A stretch of 64,000 bases of DNA from Lentisphaeria bacterium (GTDB lineage: Bacteria > Verrucomicrobiota > Lentisphaeria > Victivallales > Victivallaceae). Position numbers and translations under genes: made by a program. Under the pieces are notes generated by a model. That model saw only the letters and a list, made by a program, of their open reading frames with translations, did not search any database and was not told the DNA's origin. Positions 15,834 through 36,044 of this stretch are shown one piece after another; within the stretch, counting starts at the first letter, position 1, and every line of letters begins with the position of its first letter. The stretch covers positions 62,001 to 126,000 of the forward strand of contig JAFVZB010000068.1 of NCBI GenBank assembly GCA_017508385.1, written 5' to 3'.

Positions 15834-18800
15834 ATGGCGGCTATCCACATTTCCCGCGGTCAAATCAGTTCAGGTCTGATTGTTCTAAACAACTCCATGT
15901 ATGTTTCAAACGGCGGAGTAGCGAACTACACTACCGTCGATTCCAGTGGGTATATGTATATCTCAAGCGGCGGCAAAGCGAACGACACTACCGTCGATTC
16001 CGGTGGGCGTATGTATATCTCAAGCGGCGGCAAAGCGAACAGAACTACCGTCTATGACCATGGGTCTATGCATATCTCAAGCGGCGGCGAAGCGAACAAC
16101 ACTACCGTTAGCAGTGGGTATATGTATATCTCCAGCGGCGGCGTAGCGGACTTCACTAAAGTTAGCAGTGGGTATATGTATATCTCCAGCGGCGGCAAAG
16201 CGAACAACACTACCGTCGATTCCGGTGGGCGTATGCATATCTCAAACGGCGGCGTGGCGAACAGCACTACCGTCTATGACCATGGGTCTATGCATATCTC
16301 AAGCGGCGGCGTAGCGAACTACACTAAAGTTATAAGTGGGTATATGTATATCTCAAGCGGCGGCGAAGCGAACAGCACTACCGTCAATTACGGTGGGGAT
16401 ATGTATATCTCAAGCGGCGGCGTAGCAAACTACACTACCGTTGACTATAGCGGAAATATGTATATCTCCAGCGGCGGCGAAGCGAACAGCACTGACGTCT
16501 ATGACCATGGGTCTATGCATATCTCAAACGGCGGCGTAGCGAACAGCACTAACGTCAATTACGGTGGGGCTATGCATATCTCAAGCGGCGGCGTAGCGAA
16601 CAACACTACCGTCGATTGGCTCGGGTCTATGTATATCTCTAAGGGCGGCGAAGCGAACAACACTACCGTCAATTCCGCTGGGTCTATGTATATCTCAAGC
16701 GGCGGCGAAGCGAATAGCACTACCGTCAATTCCAGCGGGATTATGTATATCTCAAGCGGTGGCGAAGCGAATAGCACTACCGTCAATTCCAGCGGGATTA
16801 TGTATATCTCAAGCGGTGGCGAAGCGAACAACACTACCGTCAATTCCGGTGGGTCTATGTATATCTCAAGCGGCGGCGAAGCGAATAGCACTACCGTCAA
16901 TTCCAGCGGGATTATGTATATCTTAAGCGGCGGAATAGCGACAGAACTTTATTTGAAAGCCGGTGGAGCTCTCTGGAATTTTTCTTTTAATGAAGATAAG
17001 CATTTCGCCAAAATCAACGGTGTTGCAGAAATTTCTCATAACGTGTTTGTAGTTGAAAGCAGTATGCTTGTTTCCAGCGGCGGCGTAGCGAACTACACTA
17101 CCGTCAATGACCGTGGGTCTATGTATATCTCAAGCGGCGGCGTAGCGAACTACACTACCTTAAGTTGGGCTATGTATATCTCGAACGGCGGCGTAGCGAA
17201 CAACACTACCGTTAACTCCAGAGGGACTATGTATATCTCAAGCGGCGGCGTAGCGAACAGCACTGCCGTCAATGCAGACGGGCGCATGATTATATCCGGC
17301 GGAACAGTAAATAATACCACAGTTAATTCCTATGGCAGTCTTTATGTTTCCAACGGAGGAAAGTGTCAAGACACTATCGTTAATGCCCAGGGACGTATGT
17401 TCGTTTACAGTGGAGTTGCAAGTGACACAACTGTAAATTCAGGAGGATCTCTGCATCTTGACGCCGGCAGTGGAAATTTCACATACCAAACTACGATCAA
17501 TTCCGGTGGAAAAATGACTGCCGATGGAGGCGTGATTAATAATACAACAGTGAAATCCGGAGGATCGCTTGTTTGCTATTATGTAAACGGAAAAAATCTT
17601 ATTCTTTCCCGTGGTGCTGTGTTGGGCGGATTTTCTTTTGAAGATGAAAAGAAAATTGATACAATAACAAATGGTTCCGCAATTTTATCTCCCTCTATTT
17701 ACATATCAGGCTATAATATGACTGTGTCGGATGGCGGAGTAGCAACAGGAACGACTGTTGGCGAAAGTATGTTTACCGGAGATATTGTACTTGGGGTTGG
17801 CGGGGGCAATCTCCGTGTTTACAGTGGTGGTATTATTTCAAAAACGATTGCCGCTTCTGATGGAAATGTAAACGTTTATTCCGGCGGTATTGCAAACAGT
17901 ACATTGGTTGATTCCGGCGGTTCTATGTGTGTTTACAGTGGGGGCTCTGCATTTTATATAAAAGAAAACGGCGGTTACGTAGATGTTAAAAGTGGAGCAA
18001 ATGTGAGCTTTATTCCCAATACCATCGACGGGCTGACGTTGAGCCATACTCTGTACGAAAAAACAACACTTCATTCCGGTACAGTGGCGAATAACATGAC
18101 CGTCAACTGGAATGGTGCGCTTTATATTTTCAGCAGCGGATTGGCAAATAACACAACTTTTAATGGCGGATTCTTGTATATTTACAATGGCGGTGTTGCA
18201 AGCAACACTACCGTAAAAACAGAAGGCGGTCCTAATTCTAATGTTGTAAAAATTTACAGCGGAGGTGTACATAAAGGTCGTCTGAACATGAACAGTGTCC
18301 GTTTTGGCACTATTGTTTCTGCTTATCAAGGTGCAATTATTGATTTTACAGTGGCTGATGTTGCACCGCAAAGTGATTATCTCATCAATAATGTTTCTCA
18401 GATTTCCGGTGCTCCTACCTATACTATCACGGTCAAAGCTGACCAGAAAGAGGGTACTTACAATTTGGCTCAGGAGGCAGGGGAGTTTACCGGTACACTC
18501 ACTATCGGAGATGATTCCAAACGTTATGGCAATATCACTGTAAATGGTGATACTGTTACCTATAACAATGTGAAATATACTTTGAGGCAGAAAGATGGCA
18601 ACCTCAATCTTTTTGTCGGCGACTTTTCTCTGCTTGCCGCTCCGACTTATACGCTATCACCTGCGGAGGGATGGACTGCCGGCGATGTAGTCATTACCGT
18701 TGTCTTTGACAAGGAATCCGTTCTTAACGAGTATTCACTTGATAACGGTTCCAAATGGCTGAAGTGTGAGGGAAACACGATAACCGTTTCCAATAACGGA

Positions 18801-21797
18801 ACTGTTCTTCTGCGTTCATCAGATTCCAATGGTATTTCAAGTACGGTAACTACCGTTGATATCAGCAATATCGACAAAGAAAAACCGGTTGTATCCGCTG
18901 CTGCTGAAACTCCGTCATCTTACGTCAGCAAGGTTACGATCACAGTTTCCGCAACCGACAGCCAGAGCGGTATCGACAAAATTGAATACAGTCTCGATAA
19001 AAAACAATGGTTTGCCGTAAGTGGAAATTCTTACACTGCAACTGCCAACGGAACTGTTTATTTCCGTGCCACTGACAAGGTGGGGCTGGTTTCTGACATC
19101 AAAAGCGTCTCAGTAAGCAAAATAGATGTTGAAAAACCGACTCTTCTTGTTACCGGAAATCCGACAGAGTTTACCGAAGAAAGTGTGGTGCTCGCCATTA
19201 CAGCAACCGACAAGACCAGCGGAATCGACAAGGTCGAATACTCCATTGATGGAGCTGATTACAAGAGCGTAACCCTTGACGCTCAGGGCATGGGCACTCT
19301 CACCATCGACAAAAACTGCAAAGTTACTGTGCGGGCATTTGACAAAGCCGGACTCTTTGCCGAAGAGGTGGTGACAGTTGACAAGATAGAGAAAGATGCT
19401 CCTGTAATAACGATAAAATCCGATCCTGCATCCTGGACAAATGCCGCAGTTGTTACCGTCAGTGCCACCGCAACCGATGATGCAAGCGGCGTTAAGAGTC
19501 TTGAATACTGGAATGGAACTGAATGGGTCGCAGGTTCATCCGTTGAAGTCACCGAAAACAATACTGTTGTCAAATTCAAAGCTGTTGACAATTTCAACAG
19601 AAGCAGCGAAAAGAGTTTTACCGTAAACTTCATCGACCGTATCGCTCCGTCAGCAGTGATTTCAGGCAACTCAGAAAAACTTGTAAAAGAGTTGACGCTT
19701 TCAGTTTCAGCAACCGATGATGCAAGCGGTATTTCTTCGGTCAAATACAGTTTTGACAACAGGGTTTGGAATGAGGGAAAAAGCGTATTGGTCACAGACA
19801 ACGGAACCGTTTATTTCCAAGTCACGGATAAAGCGGGCAACGTTGTCACCGTCTCCGAAAAAGTGGTCAACATAGACAACGTTAAACCGGAACTCACTGT
19901 AACCGGAAATCCGGCAGCGTATCAGGAAAACGATGTTATCCTGCGTGCAACCGCCACAGATAATCTCTCTCCGGTGGTATTCATCAGTTACAGTTTAGAC
20001 AATAAATCAACATGGCAGCTGTATTCAGATGATGCTCCATGTGTCGTCACCGGAAATCAGACCGTCTATTTCAGAGCTGTGGATTCAGTGGGCAACATTA
20101 CTGAAAAGGCAATAGTCGTTGATAAAATCGACAAGGATAACCCGGTAATTTCCGTTTCAGGATACGATGGCAAATGGATAAATAAAGATGTTATTTTAAC
20201 CATCAACGCCACCGACGCTTCAAGTCCTGTTGTGAAAACAGAATACCGCATCGGCGACAATGGCGAGTGGATTTCAGGCAAAAGAGTTGTTGTCACCGAA
20301 AATACAAAGGTTTATTTCCGTGCCACCGACTCGATAGGACACGTCACCACGAGCGATATCGTTATCGATAAAATCGACAAAATCGCTCCTGCCGCTCCGC
20401 AGGTCTCGGCTGACATCACCTCATGGGTAAATAAAGATGTGACGCTTTCTGCGGTGTTTGCGGCAGACTCCGTGAAAAACGAATACTCTGTCAATGGCGG
20501 AGCTTATCAAACTTACACCTCAAGCGGGGTCATCGTAAGCGAAAACGGAACCGTTGATTTCCGTTCTACCGATGCCGCAGGAAATATTGCCGTTACCGCT
20601 TTTGAAGTCAAAAACATTGATAAAACAGCTCCGGTAATTACAGTTTCAGGTTTATCCGCAACCAGAACACGCCGTCCGGTCACCGTCACCGCCGATGCCG
20701 CAGACTCTGCCAGCGGAGCCAAAACGCTTGAGTACAGTTTCGACAACAAAACATGGCGTTCAGGTGCTTCAGTTACCGTAACAGAAAACTGCACAATTTA
20801 TTTCCGTGCCGGAGATGTCGCAGGTAATACCGGCGTTGTAACTGCGGTGGTCGATAACATCGTTGAAACTCCGCCGGATTCAAGTCTGCTCGGCAATGGC
20901 ACAAGTCAGATCACAGGTTTCGATTCCGTCAGGGGAAAAGTCGGATTTGTTGCAGTCGATGGCAATGTTTCTCCGCAGTGGCAGGGCGTCTGGGAGTGGA
21001 GCGGAAAAGATATCTCTACATGGCGTGTAGCCGCAGTTGGCAAGTTTGCCGGAAGTGCCTCAAACAACGATGGTCTTCTGCTTCAAAACACCTCCAATAA
21101 CACATTCGCCGCCTGGAGTGACCTCGGCAGAGGCGACTACGGATACGTGAGTCTTGCCACTGTCGATGGAAACTTTTCAGCCGTCAGCATCGTTGACCTC
21201 GGCGGAAGCAGTAAGTTTGACGATGTCCTCATCAGAGATGAGAACGGCAGCACCGGAGTAGTCATTGATGGCACGACCTACCACGATATCTGGCACGTCA
21301 ACGACGGTGAATATTCCGCATGGGAGTTTTACGGTTCAGGCAATTTCGGCGACAACATCAGCTCACTCGTTGCCAGAAACTGTTACACCAATCACCTCGT
21401 ACTTTGGGCAAACAATGACATCACCTTTGAAACCTGGGATTGGAGCATCCGCACTCTCGGCTATCTCGGCAACGATTTTGAATTTGCCGCTGTCGGAGAT
21501 TTTTACGGTGATGAAACAGATGATATCCTCGTCCGCAACAACAAGGATAACAGTCTGTGGGTCTGGGATGACGGCAACGCCTCGACCGCCCGTTGGGTGG
21601 TGACTCCCGAAAAAGGCTTTGCGGTCGAGGGAGTCGGTGATTACAACGGAGACTGCAAAGATGATATCCTCGTGCGTGAGTACAACACAAAATGGGGCGG
21701 TCTCGGTTACTATGCTCCGGGAACAGATACCCTCTGGAACGACCTCAACGCCCGTATTGAGACAGGTTACGAAAGCAATTTTGCCATTATAGCGTGA
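15834..21797 (+). CDS. Giant AIDA-repeat, Ig-like and FG-GAP-like surface protein
   Basis: 1987 residues, unusual in every part. Residues about 20-375 are 18 near-identical 18-19-residue AIDA-type repeats (MYISSGGVANNTTVxxxG). After a spacer (FSFNEDKHF...) come more, increasingly divergent repeats to about 830, broken by a second similar spacer (FSFEDEKK...). About 930-1680 holds nine Ig-like modules (YSLDNGSKW, NGTVYFRATD-type motifs, linker IDK-x-x-P). The last 300 residues carry FG-GAP/VCBS-like motifs (VGDFYGDETDDILVR, VGDYNGDCKDDILVR). There is no N-terminal signal peptide and no autotransporter barrel, so type I or another secretion route is inferred. It is probably a cell-surface adhesin or stalk. 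The promoter is 24 bases upstream. Confidence 0.88.
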   Translation: MAAIHISRGQISSGLIVLNNSMYVSNGGVANYTTVDSSGYMYISSGGKANDTTVDSGGRMYISSGGKANRTTVYDHGSMHISSGGEANNTTVSSGYMYISSGGVADFTKVSSGYMYISSGGKANNTTVDSGGRMHISNGGVANSTTVYDHGSMHISSGGVANYTKVISGYMYISSGGEANSTTVNYGGDMYISSGGVANYTTVDYSGNMYISSGGEANSTDVYDHGSMHISNGGVANSTNVNYGGAMHISSGGVANNTTVDWLGSMYISKGGEANNTTVNSAGSMYISSGGEANSTTVNSSGIMYISSGGEANSTTVNSSGIMYISSGGEANNTTVNSGGSMYISSGGEANSTTVNSSGIMYILSGGIATELYLKAGGALWNFSFNEDKHFAKINGVAEISHNVFVVESSMLVSSGGVANYTTVNDRGSMYISSGGVANYTTLSWAMYISNGGVANNTTVNSRGTMYISSGGVANSTAVNADGRMIISGGTVNNTTVNSYGSLYVSNGGKCQDTIVNAQGRMFVYSGVASDTTVNSGGSLHLDAGSGNFTYQTTINSGGKMTADGGVINNTTVKSGGSLVCYYVNGKNLILSRGAVLGGFSFEDEKKIDTITNGSAILSPSIYISGYNMTVSDGGVATGTTVGESMFTGDIVLGVGGGNLRVYSGGIISKTIAASDGNVNVYSGGIANSTLVDSGGSMCVYSGGSAFYIKENGGYVDVKSGANVSFIPNTIDGLTLSHTLYEKTTLHSGTVANNMTVNWNGALYIFSSGLANNTTFNGGFLYIYNGGVASNTTVKTEGGPNSNVVKIYSGGVHKGRLNMNSVRFGTIVSAYQGAIIDFTVADVAPQSDYLINNVSQISGAPTYTITVKADQKEGTYNLAQEAGEFTGTLTIGDDSKRYGNITVNGDTVTYNNVKYTLRQKDGNLNLFVGDFSLLAAPTYTLSPAEGWTAGDVVITVVFDKESVLNEYSLDNGSKWLKCEGNTITVSNNGTVLLRSSDSNGISSTVTTVDISNIDKEKPVVSAAAETPSSYVSKVTITVSATDSQSGIDKIEYSLDKKQWFAVSGNSYTATANGTVYFRATDKVGLVSDIKSVSVSKIDVEKPTLLVTGNPTEFTEESVVLAITATDKTSGIDKVEYSIDGADYKSVTLDAQGMGTLTIDKNCKVTVRAFDKAGLFAEEVVTVDKIEKDAPVITIKSDPASWTNAAVVTVSATATDDASGVKSLEYWNGTEWVAGSSVEVTENNTVVKFKAVDNFNRSSEKSFTVNFIDRIAPSAVISGNSEKLVKELTLSVSATDDASGISSVKYSFDNRVWNEGKSVLVTDNGTVYFQVTDKAGNVVTVSEKVVNIDNVKPELTVTGNPAAYQENDVILRATATDNLSPVVFISYSLDNKSTWQLYSDDAPCVVTGNQTVYFRAVDSVGNITEKAIVVDKIDKDNPVISVSGYDGKWINKDVILTINATDASSPVVKTEYRIGDNGEWISGKRVVVTENTKVYFRATDSIGHVTTSDIVIDKIDKIAPAAPQVSADITSWVNKDVTLSAVFAADSVKNEYSVNGGAYQTYTSSGVIVSENGTVDFRSTDAAGNIAVTAFEVKNIDKTAPVITVSGLSATRTRRPVTVTADAADSASGAKTLEYSFDNKTWRSGASVTVTENCTIYFRAGDVAGNTGVVTAVVDNIVETPPDSSLLGNGTSQITGFDSVRGKVGFVAVDGNVSPQWQGVWEWSGKDISTWRVAAVGKFAGSASNNDGLLLQNTSNNTFAAWSDLGRGDYGYVSLATVDGNFSAVSIVDLGGSSKFDDVLIRDENGSTGVVIDGTTYHDIWHVNDGEYSAWEFYGSGNFGDNISSLVARNCYTNHLVLWANNDITFETWDWSIRTLGYLGNDFEFAAVGDFYGDETDDILVRNNKDNSLWVWDDGNASTARWVVTPEKGFAVEGVGDYNGDCKDDILVREYNTKWGGLGYYAPGTDTLWNDLNARIETGYESNFAIIA
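15895..16940 (+). repeat. Tandem 54-57 bp DNA repeats encoding AIDA units
   Basis: About 18 head-to-tail units built around TATGTATATCTCAAGCGGC. Several adjacent units (for example within 16680-16920) are identical or differ by one or two bases, meaning recent duplication or conversion at the DNA level, not only protein conservation. Copy number is likely to vary between strains and may be misassembled from short reads. Confidence 0.9.
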
Positions 21798-29350: not shown

Positions 29351-29390
29351 GTACCGTGACATTGTTATCTGCGTATTTGAGGGTATTTTT

Positions 29391-29768
29391 ATGAAACTTG
29401 ATTTTGAAAAAACAGACGGACTTATTCCGGCGATCGCTCAGGATTTTGCCACCGGAGAAGTGCTTATGCTGGCATATATAAATGAGGAGGCTTGGAACGA
29501 AACCATTGCCACCGGCAGAGCCGTATATTACTCACGCAGCCGGAAAAAACTCTGGCGCAAAGGCGAAGAGAGCGGAAATGTTCAAGTAATCAAAGATATC
29601 CGGGTCGATTGCGATTGCGATACGGTCATTTTCATGGTCGAACAAATCGGCGGAGCCGCATGTCACACCGGGCACCGCAGCTGTTTTTACACCAGTGTTT
29701 CCGCTGACGGAACAACAAAAGAGTTGAGTGAGCCGATTTTTGACCCGGCAAAAGTTTACGGCAAATAA
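29391..29768 (+). CDS. hisI: Phosphoribosyl-AMP cyclohydrolase
   Basis: 125-residue HisI, third step of histidine synthesis (opens the PR-AMP purine ring). Diagnostic features are [10 protein letters not shown], the Mg2+ site DCDCDT and the zinc ligand segment [10 protein letters not shown]. There is no fused HisE domain, so PR-ATP pyrophosphatase must be encoded elsewhere. GAGGG lies seven bases before the ATG at 29391. No other his gene is nearby; the MurB-Ddl gene follows by 14 bases. Confidence 0.95.
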
Positions 29769-29782
29769 CACGGGGGAACAAA

Positions 29783-31873
29783 ATGAAATTATTTAACAAA
29801 ATAGCCAAAAAGTTTCCGGCATTGCCCCTGAAATCCGGAGTTCCGTATCGTGAAATAACGACCCTCGGAGTAGGCAGTGTGCTTCCTGTTCTTGCCGAGC
29901 CTGAGTCGGTTGAGCAACTATCAGAGCTTGTCGGATATCTGAATTCAAAACGGATAGCATGGTTCGTTTTCGGAGCAGGCAGCAACGTTGTCGGTATGGA
30001 TAAACCATACAATGGCATTGGTATCAGATTGAGCAGCAAAGCGTTTTCGGTACAGACAATTGATGATACAAATGTAATTTGCGGAGCCTATGTTCGTCTG
30101 CCCCGTCTGGCGGCTGATCTTGCTGAAGCAGGTCTCGGCGGACTCTCTCCGCTAGCCGGTATTCCGGGCACCATAGGCGGTGCGGTAAGAATGAATGCCG
30201 GAGCAAATGGAACTGAAATCGGTAATTTCGTCCGCAAAGTAAGTGGTATCGATGAGTGCGGCAATGCATGGGAAAAGCTCCATGACGAAATAAACTGGCG
30301 TTATCGCGGCTGTGACATTCCTGCAAATTGGATAATCACTCAGGTAGAGTTTGCATTTACCCGAAGTACGCCTGAAGCCGAGCAGAAAATAATTTCCGAT
30401 GAGCTGGCGGCAAGACGTGCAAGGGAGCCTTTCGGCAGAACTGCCGGCTGTGTGTTCCGCAATGTCTCTTCGGTAGAGCCTGCCGGTATGCTTATAGACC
30501 GATGCGGACTGCGTGACTGCCACTTCGGAAATCTCGCTCTGAGTGCAAAGCACGCCAATTATATAATCAACCTCGGCAGTGCCTCCGAAGAGGAGTACTT
30601 TTCGCTCGTTTCCACCTGCCGCCGTGCGGTTGCCGAAAAATACGGTTTCTATCTGCAGCTCGAACAGTGCTGCATCGACCCTGATTTTACCGACCGCCTG
30701 AACCGTTTTGTTCCGGCAGTGAAAGTTAATGTTCTCGCCGGTGGCACTTCAAGTGAGCGAGAGGTATCATTGCAAAGTGCGACTGCCGTTTACAATGCCC
30801 TCAAAAGAGCCGGACTCGATGCAGTTCTGAGCGATATCAAAAGCTGCCGTGTCACCGATACCATGAAGAACAGCCATGTTGTTTATCCTGTACTGCACGG
30901 CGGTTTCGGAGAAAACGGAGAGCTTCAGAAGCACCTCGAGCGTGAGGGAATAGCTTTTGTCGGCTCAGGTTCAGTAGCCTGCAATCTTATTATGGATAAA
31001 ATCCTTACCAAACGTCTGCTCGACAGATTGATGCTGCCGACTGCCAGATGGAAAATTGCGACAAGGGAAAATCGTGAGTTTCCTGAAGAATTGAAGTTTC
31101 CGGTTATCCTCAAAGTTCCGGATGAGGGTTCGACTTTCGGTATTATCAAGGTTGACTCGCTTGAAGAGTGGAAAGAGGCTCTTGATAAAGAGCTTAAACT
31201 CGCAGATGAAATACTCGTTGAAGAGTTCATCGACGGAATAGAGATCACCGTTCCCATCATTCAGGGGAGGGTGCTTGATGCTATTGAAATACGTTCTCCC
31301 AACGGATTTTATGATTACGATGCAAAATATCTCTACAAAAACGGCCACACGGAGTACTTCTGTCCTCCGGTGAGTTTGAGCGAAAGCGTTATCGAAGAGG
31401 CAAAGCGTTCTGCGTTGATACTCTACCGTGCCGCCGGATGCAGGGATATCCTGCGTGTCGATTTCATTATTGGTAAAAATGACAATATTCCTTATATGCT
31501 CGAAGGAAACGCCATTCCGGGATGCACAGAAACAAGTCTGGTTCCCAAAGCTGCAAAAGCCTCAGGAATATCTTTTGAACGCATGACCACCGATATGGTT
31601 TATGCGGCTCTGCGCCGTCCGGCAAATGCGGCAGGCGGATATACTCTTGATAATGTTCCCAACACACTGCTGGTCAATATAGCCACATGGATGGTGAGAT
31701 TCTGCTGCTGGTGCTGCGGAGTGTTTCTGCTGGCAATCGGAGTTTATCAAATCCAGCACAATATGCCGGGAATTCCGTTGATGCTCAGCGGCATACTCGT
31801 GATTATGGCTGAATCTATTTTCAACTTGCTCAACAAAATGCGGAAAAACTCCGCAACAGGTAAAAAGAAATGA
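29783..31873 (+). CDS. MurB-Ddl fusion with C-terminal membrane segments
   Basis: 696 residues joining two peptidoglycan enzymes. Residues 1-305 are UDP-N-acetylenolpyruvoylglucosamine reductase (MurB): FAD-site FGAGSNVV, AGIPGTIGGAVRMNAGANG and GRTAGCVFRN. The usual catalytic Ser position is Cys223. Residues about 313-625 are D-Ala-D-Ala ligase: HGGFGENG near 372, KVPDEGSTFGI, ATP-grasp VDFI and EGNAIPGCTETS. Residues about 640-683 form two hydrophobic segments with a Lys-rich end, so the enzyme is probably tethered to the inner membrane. There is no stop or frame change between domains. GGGGG lies six bases before the ATG; the stop overlaps the next gene. Confidence 0.93.
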   Translation: MKLFNKIAKKFPALPLKSGVPYREITTLGVGSVLPVLAEPESVEQLSELVGYLNSKRIAWFVFGAGSNVVGMDKPYNGIGIRLSSKAFSVQTIDDTNVICGAYVRLPRLAADLAEAGLGGLSPLAGIPGTIGGAVRMNAGANGTEIGNFVRKVSGIDECGNAWEKLHDEINWRYRGCDIPANWIITQVEFAFTRSTPEAEQKIISDELAARRAREPFGRTAGCVFRNVSSVEPAGMLIDRCGLRDCHFGNLALSAKHANYIINLGSASEEEYFSLVSTCRRAVAEKYGFYLQLEQCCIDPDFTDRLNRFVPAVKVNVLAGGTSSEREVSLQSATAVYNALKRAGLDAVLSDIKSCRVTDTMKNSHVVYPVLHGGFGENGELQKHLEREGIAFVGSGSVACNLIMDKILTKRLLDRLMLPTARWKIATRENREFPEELKFPVILKVPDEGSTFGIIKVDSLEEWKEALDKELKLADEILVEEFIDGIEITVPIIQGRVLDAIEIRSPNGFYDYDAKYLYKNGHTEYFCPPVSLSESVIEEAKRSALILYRAAGCRDILRVDFIIGKNDNIPYMLEGNAIPGCTETSLVPKAAKASGISFERMTTDMVYAALRRPANAAGGYTLDNVPNTLLVNIATWMVRFCCWCCGVFLLAIGVYQIQHNMPGIPLMLSGILVIMAESIFNLLNKMRKNSATGKKK

Positions 31874-32988
31874 AAAAAATCGCCCTTCTATTATTGTTGC
31901 TGCTCACCGTGGCGGGCAGGGCAGGGGAGATGCTGCCCCTCGGAAGCAATGCTCCGGAACTTGATGTAAAAAAATGGGTACACAGGGATTCTGTCACCAT
32001 TGCTCAGTACAGAAATCAGAAAGTTGTCGTTCTCTTCTTCTGGGCTCTTGACAACAACTCCCTCATGGCTTTCAAACCGCTTGCTGAACTGGTCGGTAAA
32101 GTTGGTGACAAAGTTGCCTGGATAGGTGTTGCCGAGGGGGACGAAAATAATATTTCCAAATTCAAACTCACCAAAATACTGCCGTTTCCGGTTGCAGTTG
32201 ACAGTGGAAAGACAGTTGAAGCGTATATGCCTCCCAAAGTCAAATATCCTGCGTGTGCGATCATTGCAAAAGACGGCAGATTGGTGTGGAGAGGGAGCGT
32301 GCGGAGCGTTCCTCATGTACTCAAACGTCTGCTTGCAGGAAAATTGGATATAAACGAAATCGTCCGCAAAGAACAATTTAATATCAGTCTCGGAAAAGCG
32401 GTCAGGAACAAAAACTTTAAGGAGGCTGTTGCGCTCATCGAAAAAGAGCAGAAATTAAAGTTTTCCTCTGAGCTGACAGCTCTTCACCTGCAGATTCTGC
32501 TTGAGGCGAAGGATACAAGCGGAGCAATAAAGATGCTCGATAAGACTATCGAGGAACATCCGGAACTTCCCGGACCGCATTTGTTACGTCAGATGCTTTT
32601 CCGCAGTTATTTCAAGGATGAAGCCAAAGCAGCAAGGGCAGGGCGGGATTCTATTGATAAATTAAAGAAATTTCCGATGGTGCTCGGTAATTTGCTGCAG
32701 AACGAAATGAAACTCTCTCTCGATCAACGCTCTCCTGAGTTCATATACAACATGGCAGAAGCTCTGTATTCATCGAAGAATACTTTGAAGCCGGCAGAGC
32801 AGGGGGCATTGCTGCTTGTTTATGCACAGGCGATGAATATGTGTGCCGATAACGAAAAAGCCGTATCGGCTGCAGCTGAGGCGGAAACTCTTCTGAATGA
32901 TGAGCGTGCTAAAAAAACAGCCATCATGTTGAAAAACTACTGCGAAAAGCTCAATAAACTGCAAAAACAAAAAAAGATTGCAAAATAA
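31870..32988 (+). CDS. Secreted thioredoxin-fold protein with TPR-like C-terminus
   Basis: 372 residues. A signal peptide (MKKIALLLLLLLTVAGRAG) is followed by an AhpC/TlpA-like domain (about 20-160: G-S-N-A-P-E-L-D, VVVLFFWALDNN, then the cis-Pro region YPACAII). The rest is helical and repeat-like (TPR-type). The CxxC active site is absent (WALDN in its place), so it is probably not a thiol oxidoreductase. It is translationally coupled to murB-ddl (ATGA overlap), hinting at an envelope role. Confidence 0.75.
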   Translation: MKKIALLLLLLLTVAGRAGEMLPLGSNAPELDVKKWVHRDSVTIAQYRNQKVVVLFFWALDNNSLMAFKPLAELVGKVGDKVAWIGVAEGDENNISKFKLTKILPFPVAVDSGKTVEAYMPPKVKYPACAIIAKDGRLVWRGSVRSVPHVLKRLLAGKLDINEIVRKEQFNISLGKAVRNKNFKEAVALIEKEQKLKFSSELTALHLQILLEAKDTSGAIKMLDKTIEEHPELPGPHLLRQMLFRSYFKDEAKAARAGRDSIDKLKKFPMVLGNLLQNEMKLSLDQRSPEFIYNMAEALYSSKNTLKPAEQGALLLVYAQAMNMCADNEKAVSAAAEAETLLNDERAKKTAIMLKNYCEKLNKLQKQKKIAK

Positions 32989-34817: not shown

Positions 34818-36044
34818 TTAAAGAGAGTTCACCAGCTCGCAGAATTGATTTCCGCGGTCATCGTACCCCTTAAACATATCAAAACTGGCGCAGGCCGGTG
34901 ATAACAGCACGATATCCCCCTGCTCTGCTGCATTGAAGGCAAGTTCAACAGCTTTTTTCAAATCCATTCCGGCGGAATATTTTTTCAAATCGTCTGAAAA
35001 CACCTTGCCGATATTTTCTCCTGATGCTCCGAACAAAACGGCGCACCTCAATTCGTTTTCGAGCAGTCTGAGTTCACTGAAATCCATTCCTTTGTCGGAA
35101 CCGCCGAGCATGAGAACTATCTTACCCCCCTGCCCCTTCAATGCGTTGACTGCCGATGTGACAGCCGATGGATTGGTGGCTTTTGAGTCATTATAAAATT
35201 TAACTCCGTTTTTTTGAGCAACAAACTCTATGCGGTGGCGTCCGAACTTGAACGAGCGTACTGCTTGCGCAAAACGGGGAATGTCAAGTTCGTTTTGCGG
35301 AATTATGCTCATGACCAACTGGGTTGCCGCCGCAAGATTTTCCTGATTGTGAGGCGCGGCAAATCCGGTTTCGTCAAGTTTATCAACCAATATCATTCCG
35401 TCATAAACCAGGGTGTTTTCAGAAACGACCGCCCTGCCCTTAATGGAAAAAGAGTTTATTCCGTAAAAACGCCGCTCTGTGGGAACGTTTTTGAATATGC
35501 TCTTTTTTACGGCTGCGTACTCTTCAAATCCTCCGGGGTATCTCTCTTCATGGTCGGATTTCAAATTGAGCAATACTGCCGCCGTCGGAGCAAAGTTTTC
35601 AGCCAGTTCAAGCTGGAAGCTGCTCACCTCAATCACCACCGCCTCAACCGATGAATCTGCCGCATTGGCAACCGCTGAAACAGGAAGTCCGATGTTTCCG
35701 CAAGCGACGGTTTTCACTCCGAGTGCGTTGAGCAAATGGCAGGTGAGTTCTGTTGTAGTGGTTTTTCCATTGGTTCCCGTTACCGTCAGAATGGGGATAT
35801 CACCCAGCTGAGCAGCTCCGAAAGCCATTTCGCCCGTCATCGCCCTGCCCTCTTTTACCGCTTGTCGGTAGAGATGTGATTTAAGCGGATGAACTCCGGG
35901 ACTTGCCACGATCAGATCGGATTCCGGCAGTAGAGAAGCATCGTTATCGTTGATTATAATTGCATCATATCCTAATTTTCTACCGAGGTCGAATGCGGCT
36001 CTGCCCGAGACTCCGCCACCTAAAATAACCAGCTTTTTTTTCAT
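34818..36044 (-). CDS. murD: UDP-N-acetylmuramoylalanine--D-glutamate ligase
   Basis: 408-residue MurD, adding D-Glu to UDP-MurNAc-L-Ala in the cytoplasm. The N-terminal Rossmann-like LGGGVSGRAAFDLGRKLG, the ATP loop TGTNGKTTTTE and the central IEVSSFQLE are diagnostic. Later come FGRHRIEFV, NDSKATNPSA and the C-terminal LLSPACASFDMFKGYDDRG. It stands alone, not in a dcw cluster, and is transcribed divergently from the Nif3-like gene with back-to-back promoters. Confidence 0.96.
   Translation of the reverse strand: MKKKLVILGGGVSGRAAFDLGRKLGYDAIIINDNDASLLPESDLIVASPGVHPLKSHLYRQAVKEGRAMTGEMAFGAAQLGDIPILTVTGTNGKTTTTELTCHLLNALGVKTVACGNIGLPVSAVANAADSSVEAVVIEVSSFQLELAENFAPTAAVLLNLKSDHEERYPGGFEEYAAVKKSIFKNVPTERRFYGINSFSIKGRAVVSENTLVYDGMILVDKLDETGFAAPHNQENLAAATQLVMSIIPQNELDIPRFAQAVRSFKFGRHRIEFVAQKNGVKFYNDSKATNPSAVTSAVNALKGQGGKIVLMLGGSDKGMDFSELRLLENELRCAVLFGASGENIGKVFSDDLKKYSAGMDLKKAVELAFNAAEQGDIVLLSPACASFDMFKGYDDRGNQFCELVNSL

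Follow-up and report, generated by a model that had tools for sequence, protein, structure and literature searches.

The window, that is the whole stretch of 64,000 nucleotides of Lentisphaeria DNA analysed here, carries on its forward strand a gene in which the peptidoglycan precursor enzyme MurB, a D-alanine-D-alanine ligase (Ddl) and a hydrophobic C-terminal tail are encoded together. ORF reading gives a single frame of 696 amino acids from ATG to stop (29783-31873, +) without an internal stop, and its ATG is preceded by a GGGGG run in the position expected of a ribosome-binding site. The features of the locus are:

29388..29768, + strand: hisI (phosphoribosyl-AMP cyclohydrolase), upstream neighbour, conserved in the family; domain match and locus comparison
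29783..31873, + strand: murB-ddl-tail fusion gene, 696 aa; frame and domain matches
29783..30697, + strand: MurB part, residues 1-305; FAD_binding_4 and MurB_C matches
30716..31627, + strand: D-Ala-D-Ala ligase part, residues 312-615; Pfam and NCBIfam matches
31628..31870, + strand: C-terminal tail, residues 616-696 (81 residues); homologue of a stand-alone two-helix membrane protein of relatives
31688..31744, + strand: hydrophobic stretch 1, residues 636-654; hydropathy window and helix model
31772..31828, + strand: hydrophobic stretch 2, residues 664-682; hydropathy window and helix model
31870..32988, + strand: AhpC/TSA-domain gene, downstream neighbour; its start overlaps the fusion stop by 4 bases (ATGA)

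A preliminary description of this DNA had reported MurB followed by Ddl in one uninterrupted frame, with two hydrophobic helices behind them, and both observations stand. Pfam places FAD_binding_4 at residues 36-155, MurB_C at 208-295, Dala_Dala_lig_N from 314 and Dala_Dala_lig_C at 422-606, all four above cut-off, and hydropathy analysis gives peaks at residues 636 and 664. The two MurB domains score 64.8 bits against a cut-off of 26.4 (FAD_binding_4) and 68 bits against 27 (MurB_C), and those of the ligase 138.5 against 24 (PF07478) and 66 against 34.6 (PF01820). The MurB half lies under the NCBIfam equivalog cut-offs (TIGR00179, 134.3 versus 144.5; PRK13905, 214.1 versus 259); judged by these scores it is a divergent MurB which still meets the Pfam cut-offs. 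The Ddl half exceeds the curated cut-off of PRK01372 (283.8 versus 243) and falls narrowly under that of TIGR01205 (241.6 versus 245.65).

In an alignment of 75 MurB-Ddl proteins the positions which we take to be active-site residues are well kept. Tyr174 and Glu294 of MurB are found in all 75, Arg175 in 74, and Cys223, presumably the Ser/Cys proton donor, in 73 with Ser in the other 2; a Cys at the MurB Ser position is also present in the aligned structure 2gqt. Seven presumed active-site residues of Ddl (Glu325, Ser450, Tyr510, Arg558, Asp560, Glu574 and Asn576) occur in 75 of 75. Both enzyme halves are probably catalytically active, and the ligase would form D-Ala-D-Ala.

The genome from which the window derives (2.48 Mb) is assembled in 94 contigs and is 86% complete, and one might suspect that faulty assembly or a frameshift had joined two separate genes. 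This can be ruled out: a second MAG, SIG84, has an identical MurB-Ddl-tail layout with 77% identity to the window protein, and 72 of the 78 family genomes carry MurB and Ddl in a single frame, each locus having been read individually. The window genome thus shares its fusion with most of its family; in a search of 288 genomes of the phylum, matches covering both domains were frequent across the window's order. The preliminary description had named, as one finding that would speak against it, that the fusion be a common annotated architecture. It is common within family and order, and a full-text search of open-licence papers found no published description of a MurB-Ddl fusion.

Six family genomes lack the single frame. 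In G332 and G241 the locus is cut by contig ends. In G337 (genus g1; 6% contamination) MurB is joined straight to a membrane hairpin without Ddl (L215:1517-2671). In two genomes of g165, G338 and G339 (L216:1486-2601 and L217:1502-2614), MurB is followed by about 75 further residues which look like a degenerate remnant of the start of Ddl, and G338 has a distinct Ddl-like gene elsewhere in its genome. A genome search of G022 (g1, 97% complete) gave no MurB-Ddl match, which may reflect an assembly gap or a real loss. With 72 of 78 genomes fused, and MurB-hairpin and Ddl remnants among the others, we regard the MurB-Ddl fusion as a family-wide trait which has decayed in places. At one locus (L043:1690-5262, genome G275) MurB-Ddl is in frame with about 570 more residues containing seven or eight hydrophobic stretches; no Pfam family was found in this extension at E 1e-4.

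Hidden separate copies of murB or ddl, for which a genome scan had been suggested, are not supported. Whole-genome profile searches of the 86% complete assembly gave one MurB_C match, that of the fusion locus, and four matches to Dala_Dala_lig_C (PF07478), with 142 bits at the fusion locus and 43, 38 and 27 bits elsewhere (cut-off 24). The three weaker matches are taken to be other ATP-grasp enzymes; neither a second murB nor a further convincing ddl was seen. A gene of its own on contig C30 encodes MurC, and C44 codes for a second MurC-like protein. Hydropathy analysis revealed no transmembrane stretch in MurD, in the two Mur ligases of contig C63 or in the second MurC-like protein, and a single marginal peak close to the N-terminus of MurC. 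The two MurC-family proteins (L113:3665-5233 and L112:9484-10746) form a TIGR01082 pair of a kind that recurs in the order. MurD itself lies in the window (34818-36044, -; 408 residues); it matches TIGR01087 only from model position 57, and Pfam did not find its N-terminal Mur_ligase domain. A protein of 1987 residues, also encoded in the window (15834-21797, +), contains nine stalk repeats of the AIDA type and matches DUF7743 and FG-GAP.

The origin of the tail is revealed by relatives in which murB-ddl ends without it. In genera g4 (L032, L033, L192), g11 (one genome, L037) and g14 (L194, where only the ddl end of murB-ddl was seen at the locus) a separate small frame encoding a hairpin lies directly downstream of the tailless murB-ddl, and in L032 and L037 it overlaps the murB-ddl stop by four bases. 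The gene order in g4 and g11 is hisI, murB-ddl, small gene, AhpC/TSA, which equals hisI, murB-ddl-tail, AhpC/TSA in g1 and g2. The small protein of L032 shows up to 44% identity to fused tails (best E 6e-13, in a small database). A tail-only profile, built from 15 fused tails and no stand-alone proteins, detects every one of the five stand-alone frames (E 2e-13, 2e-12, 6e-13, 1e-7 and 1e-9) as well as the fused tail of g164 (E 2e-5). When an alignment of fused tails and two stand-alone proteins was searched through the 78 whole genomes, 28 gave a match, one each, and every one was at the murB-ddl locus; as every genome encodes numerous other membrane proteins, this also controls for mere hydrophobicity. 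Homologues that stand alone next to murB-ddl and a single copy at the locus thus identify the tail as a neighbouring gene that was captured. Four tails or small proteins scanned against Pfam gave no family over cut-off, the best being DUF7533 at E 0.0027. A structure model of the tail has helices at 627-659 and 664-691 with moderate confidence (mean pLDDT 61, to be read as indicative); the full-length model, built from two sequences, had a mean pLDDT of 39 and was unusable.

The membrane tail is limited to a few genera. A fused MurB-Ddl-tail was seen in 35 of the 78 family genomes: 27 of 34 in g1 (one on split contigs), 7 of 9 in g2 and the single g164 genome. The tail-only profile misses twelve of the g1 tails, which have diverged too far and were assigned from their position and hydropathy alone. 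The tail is dispensable in three g1 and two g2 genomes, where the gene is complete at its end but stops without one; the other g1 genomes not counted among the 27 are G336 and G332, whose loci run into contig ends, G022, which has no locus, and G337 with its MurB-hairpin. On a quick tree of 75 rows, from which the partial proteins L034, L213, L220 and L221 were left out, the tail state changes at least eight times (SH-aLRT support only; the outgroup is not one clade). For the tail, seven of nine pairwise comparisons gave a dN/dS of 0.15-0.46, the other two being saturated, and the stand-alone g4 gene has a dN of 0.12 against a dS of 0.36-0.44. As the tail values exceed those of the enzyme body yet stay below 1, the tail is under purifying selection, though loosely. 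A random hydrophobic extension is rejected both by this selection and by the homologous stand-alone gene.

Taken together, we consider it likely that the locus encodes a bifunctional precursor enzyme, derived from murB, ddl and a small hairpin gene, which is held at the inner face of the cytoplasmic membrane. MurB and Ddl act at early, non-consecutive cytoplasmic steps of the pathway. Three neighbouring genes, the third specifying a small two-helix membrane protein, would have been joined; the MurB half would make UDP-MurNAc and the Ddl half D-Ala-D-Ala. With a cytoplasmic enzyme ahead of helix 1 and a basic end following helix 2, the hairpin would have both its ends on the cytoplasmic side. 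Judging by hydropathy and the moderate-confidence helix model, the tail may insert in the membrane and would then anchor both active sites at the inner face, near MraY and MurG, where the finished precursor joins the lipid carrier. The benefit would lie in concentrating precursors at the membrane, and a membrane-tethered precursor assembly point, as the preliminary description had it, may be inferred. Counting against this reading are the five tailless g1 and g2 genomes, the twelve g1 tails missed by the tail-only profile and the MurB scores under the NCBIfam cut-offs. Mur complexes at the membrane, in an arrangement of such a kind, are discussed in part of PMC6420597.

How specific such an anchor might be is less clear. 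No hairpin residue is invariant in the alignment of tails, and the divergent tails retain hydrophobicity rather than sequence. These features favour a general anchor without a specific partner, which only raises local enzyme concentration or stability at the membrane, and we hold this to be a real possibility. Against it, two positions, an Arg where helix 1 begins and a Glu within helix 2, hardly vary in the core group and always occur together (27 tails with both, 14 with neither, none with one), a pattern which amounts to 3-4 independent changes (sign test p 0.25). With so few changes, and with the alignment gapped at the helix 2 Glu in most of the divergent tails, we do not claim an Arg-Glu salt bridge. 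We would propose only tentatively that the small two-helix protein is a dedicated membrane docking subunit for cytoplasmic precursor enzymes; it would act in cis in g1, g2 and g164 but in trans in g4, g11 and g14, and would bring MurB to where lipid I is made, in G337 even in the absence of Ddl.

The hairpin might also have a task of its own apart from MurB-Ddl, perhaps as a partner of the AhpC/TSA protein, the fusion being a near-neutral loss of the stop codon between overlapping genes. An AhpC/TSA gene accompanies 20 of 31 g1, 8 of 9 g2, 3 of 3 g4, 2 of 2 g11 and 1 of 1 g14 loci and is absent from the locus in all other genera, g9 excepted; the four-base overlaps in L032 and L037 would offer an easy start for fusion, and the tail evolves faster than the enzyme body. 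We nevertheless think this unlikely. The two genes do come apart: g164 has the fused hairpin without an AhpC/TSA gene, g9 has the AhpC/TSA gene without a hairpin, and the tailless loci L010, L018 and L034 retain the AhpC/TSA gene. Moreover, most g1 and g2 genomes retain the hairpin in one protein with MurB, as does even G337, where that protein has no Ddl part.

If the docking proposal were true, the early Mur pathway would possess a membrane anchor that is genetically encoded. A membrane-bound Mur assembly line is an old question which has been argued mainly from interactions and from fusions like MurE-MurF (PMC6420597). In the relatives described here the hairpin is a separate gene, is attached to MurB alone or is absent; this natural series makes the tethering idea directly testable.

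Fusions including MurC were found in other families. Three loci of f10 (L057, L058 and L059) and one of f13 (L060), both of them families of the window's class, encode MurC-MurB-Ddl in one frame of 1026-1108 residues, confirmed by Pfam for two of the four; hydropathy indicates no C-terminal tail in these frames, and the full-text search of open-licence papers did not find the triple fusion in print. In f11 (G114, L061:282-3224) a 980-residue MurC-Ddl frame has a shortened MurB of about 200 residues between the two, and the genome contains a second partial MurB match elsewhere. In family f9 each of MurB, Ddl and MurC is matched in a frame of its own. Outside the class, 12 loci picked among the stronger matches of the 288-genome search were read. 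In 11 of these a frame of 748-837 residues ends in MurB, with ddl adjoining, and the N-terminal part is MurC in the two such frames inspected (L064 and L074). This layout agrees with the MurB/C fusion of Verrucomicrobium spinosum and the murB/C-ddlB order, as given in part of PMC4803751. In the MurB tree all MurB of the class group together, fused or not, with an SH-aLRT of 100; the exception is the long branch of G046.

The fusions named in the pertinent passage of PMC6420597 are MurE-MurF, MurB with MurC, MurG with MurC, MurC with Ddl and MraY with MurG, and MurB with Ddl is not among them; passages of PMC12283558 on the subject mention only murCB and the chlamydial murC-ddl, and part of PMC8871954 deals with dcw gene order. 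The V. spinosum MurB/C (from the account in PMC4803751) belongs to the same phylum and likewise has MurB fused to a cytoplasmic precursor enzyme, often with ddl as the next gene; its partner, however, is MurC and not Ddl, no hairpin is described in that account, and MurC of the window's genome is separate on C30. The MurC-Ddl of Chlamydia trachomatis, as treated in parts of PMC4803751 and PMC12283558, also has Ddl behind a Mur enzyme of a non-consecutive step, but its N-terminal partner is MurC, whereas that of the window fusion is MurB. The preliminary description had drawn the same distinction from the chlamydial protein, and it holds, Pfam having found no Mur_ligase domain in the fusion protein. 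To our knowledge the chlamydial MurC-Ddl has no hairpin. The f10 and f13 frames resemble the window fusion in having MurB directly before Ddl but differ in their N-terminal MurC and lack of a tail. Bordetella pertussis MurE-MurF with its MurG scaffold is likewise a fusion of cytoplasmic precursor enzymes, discussed in part of PMC6420597 as belonging to a complex at the membrane; the enzymes are different, and membrane contact is via MurG rather than via a hairpin within the fusion. Mur-enzyme fusions are already known, and the tail is the new part.
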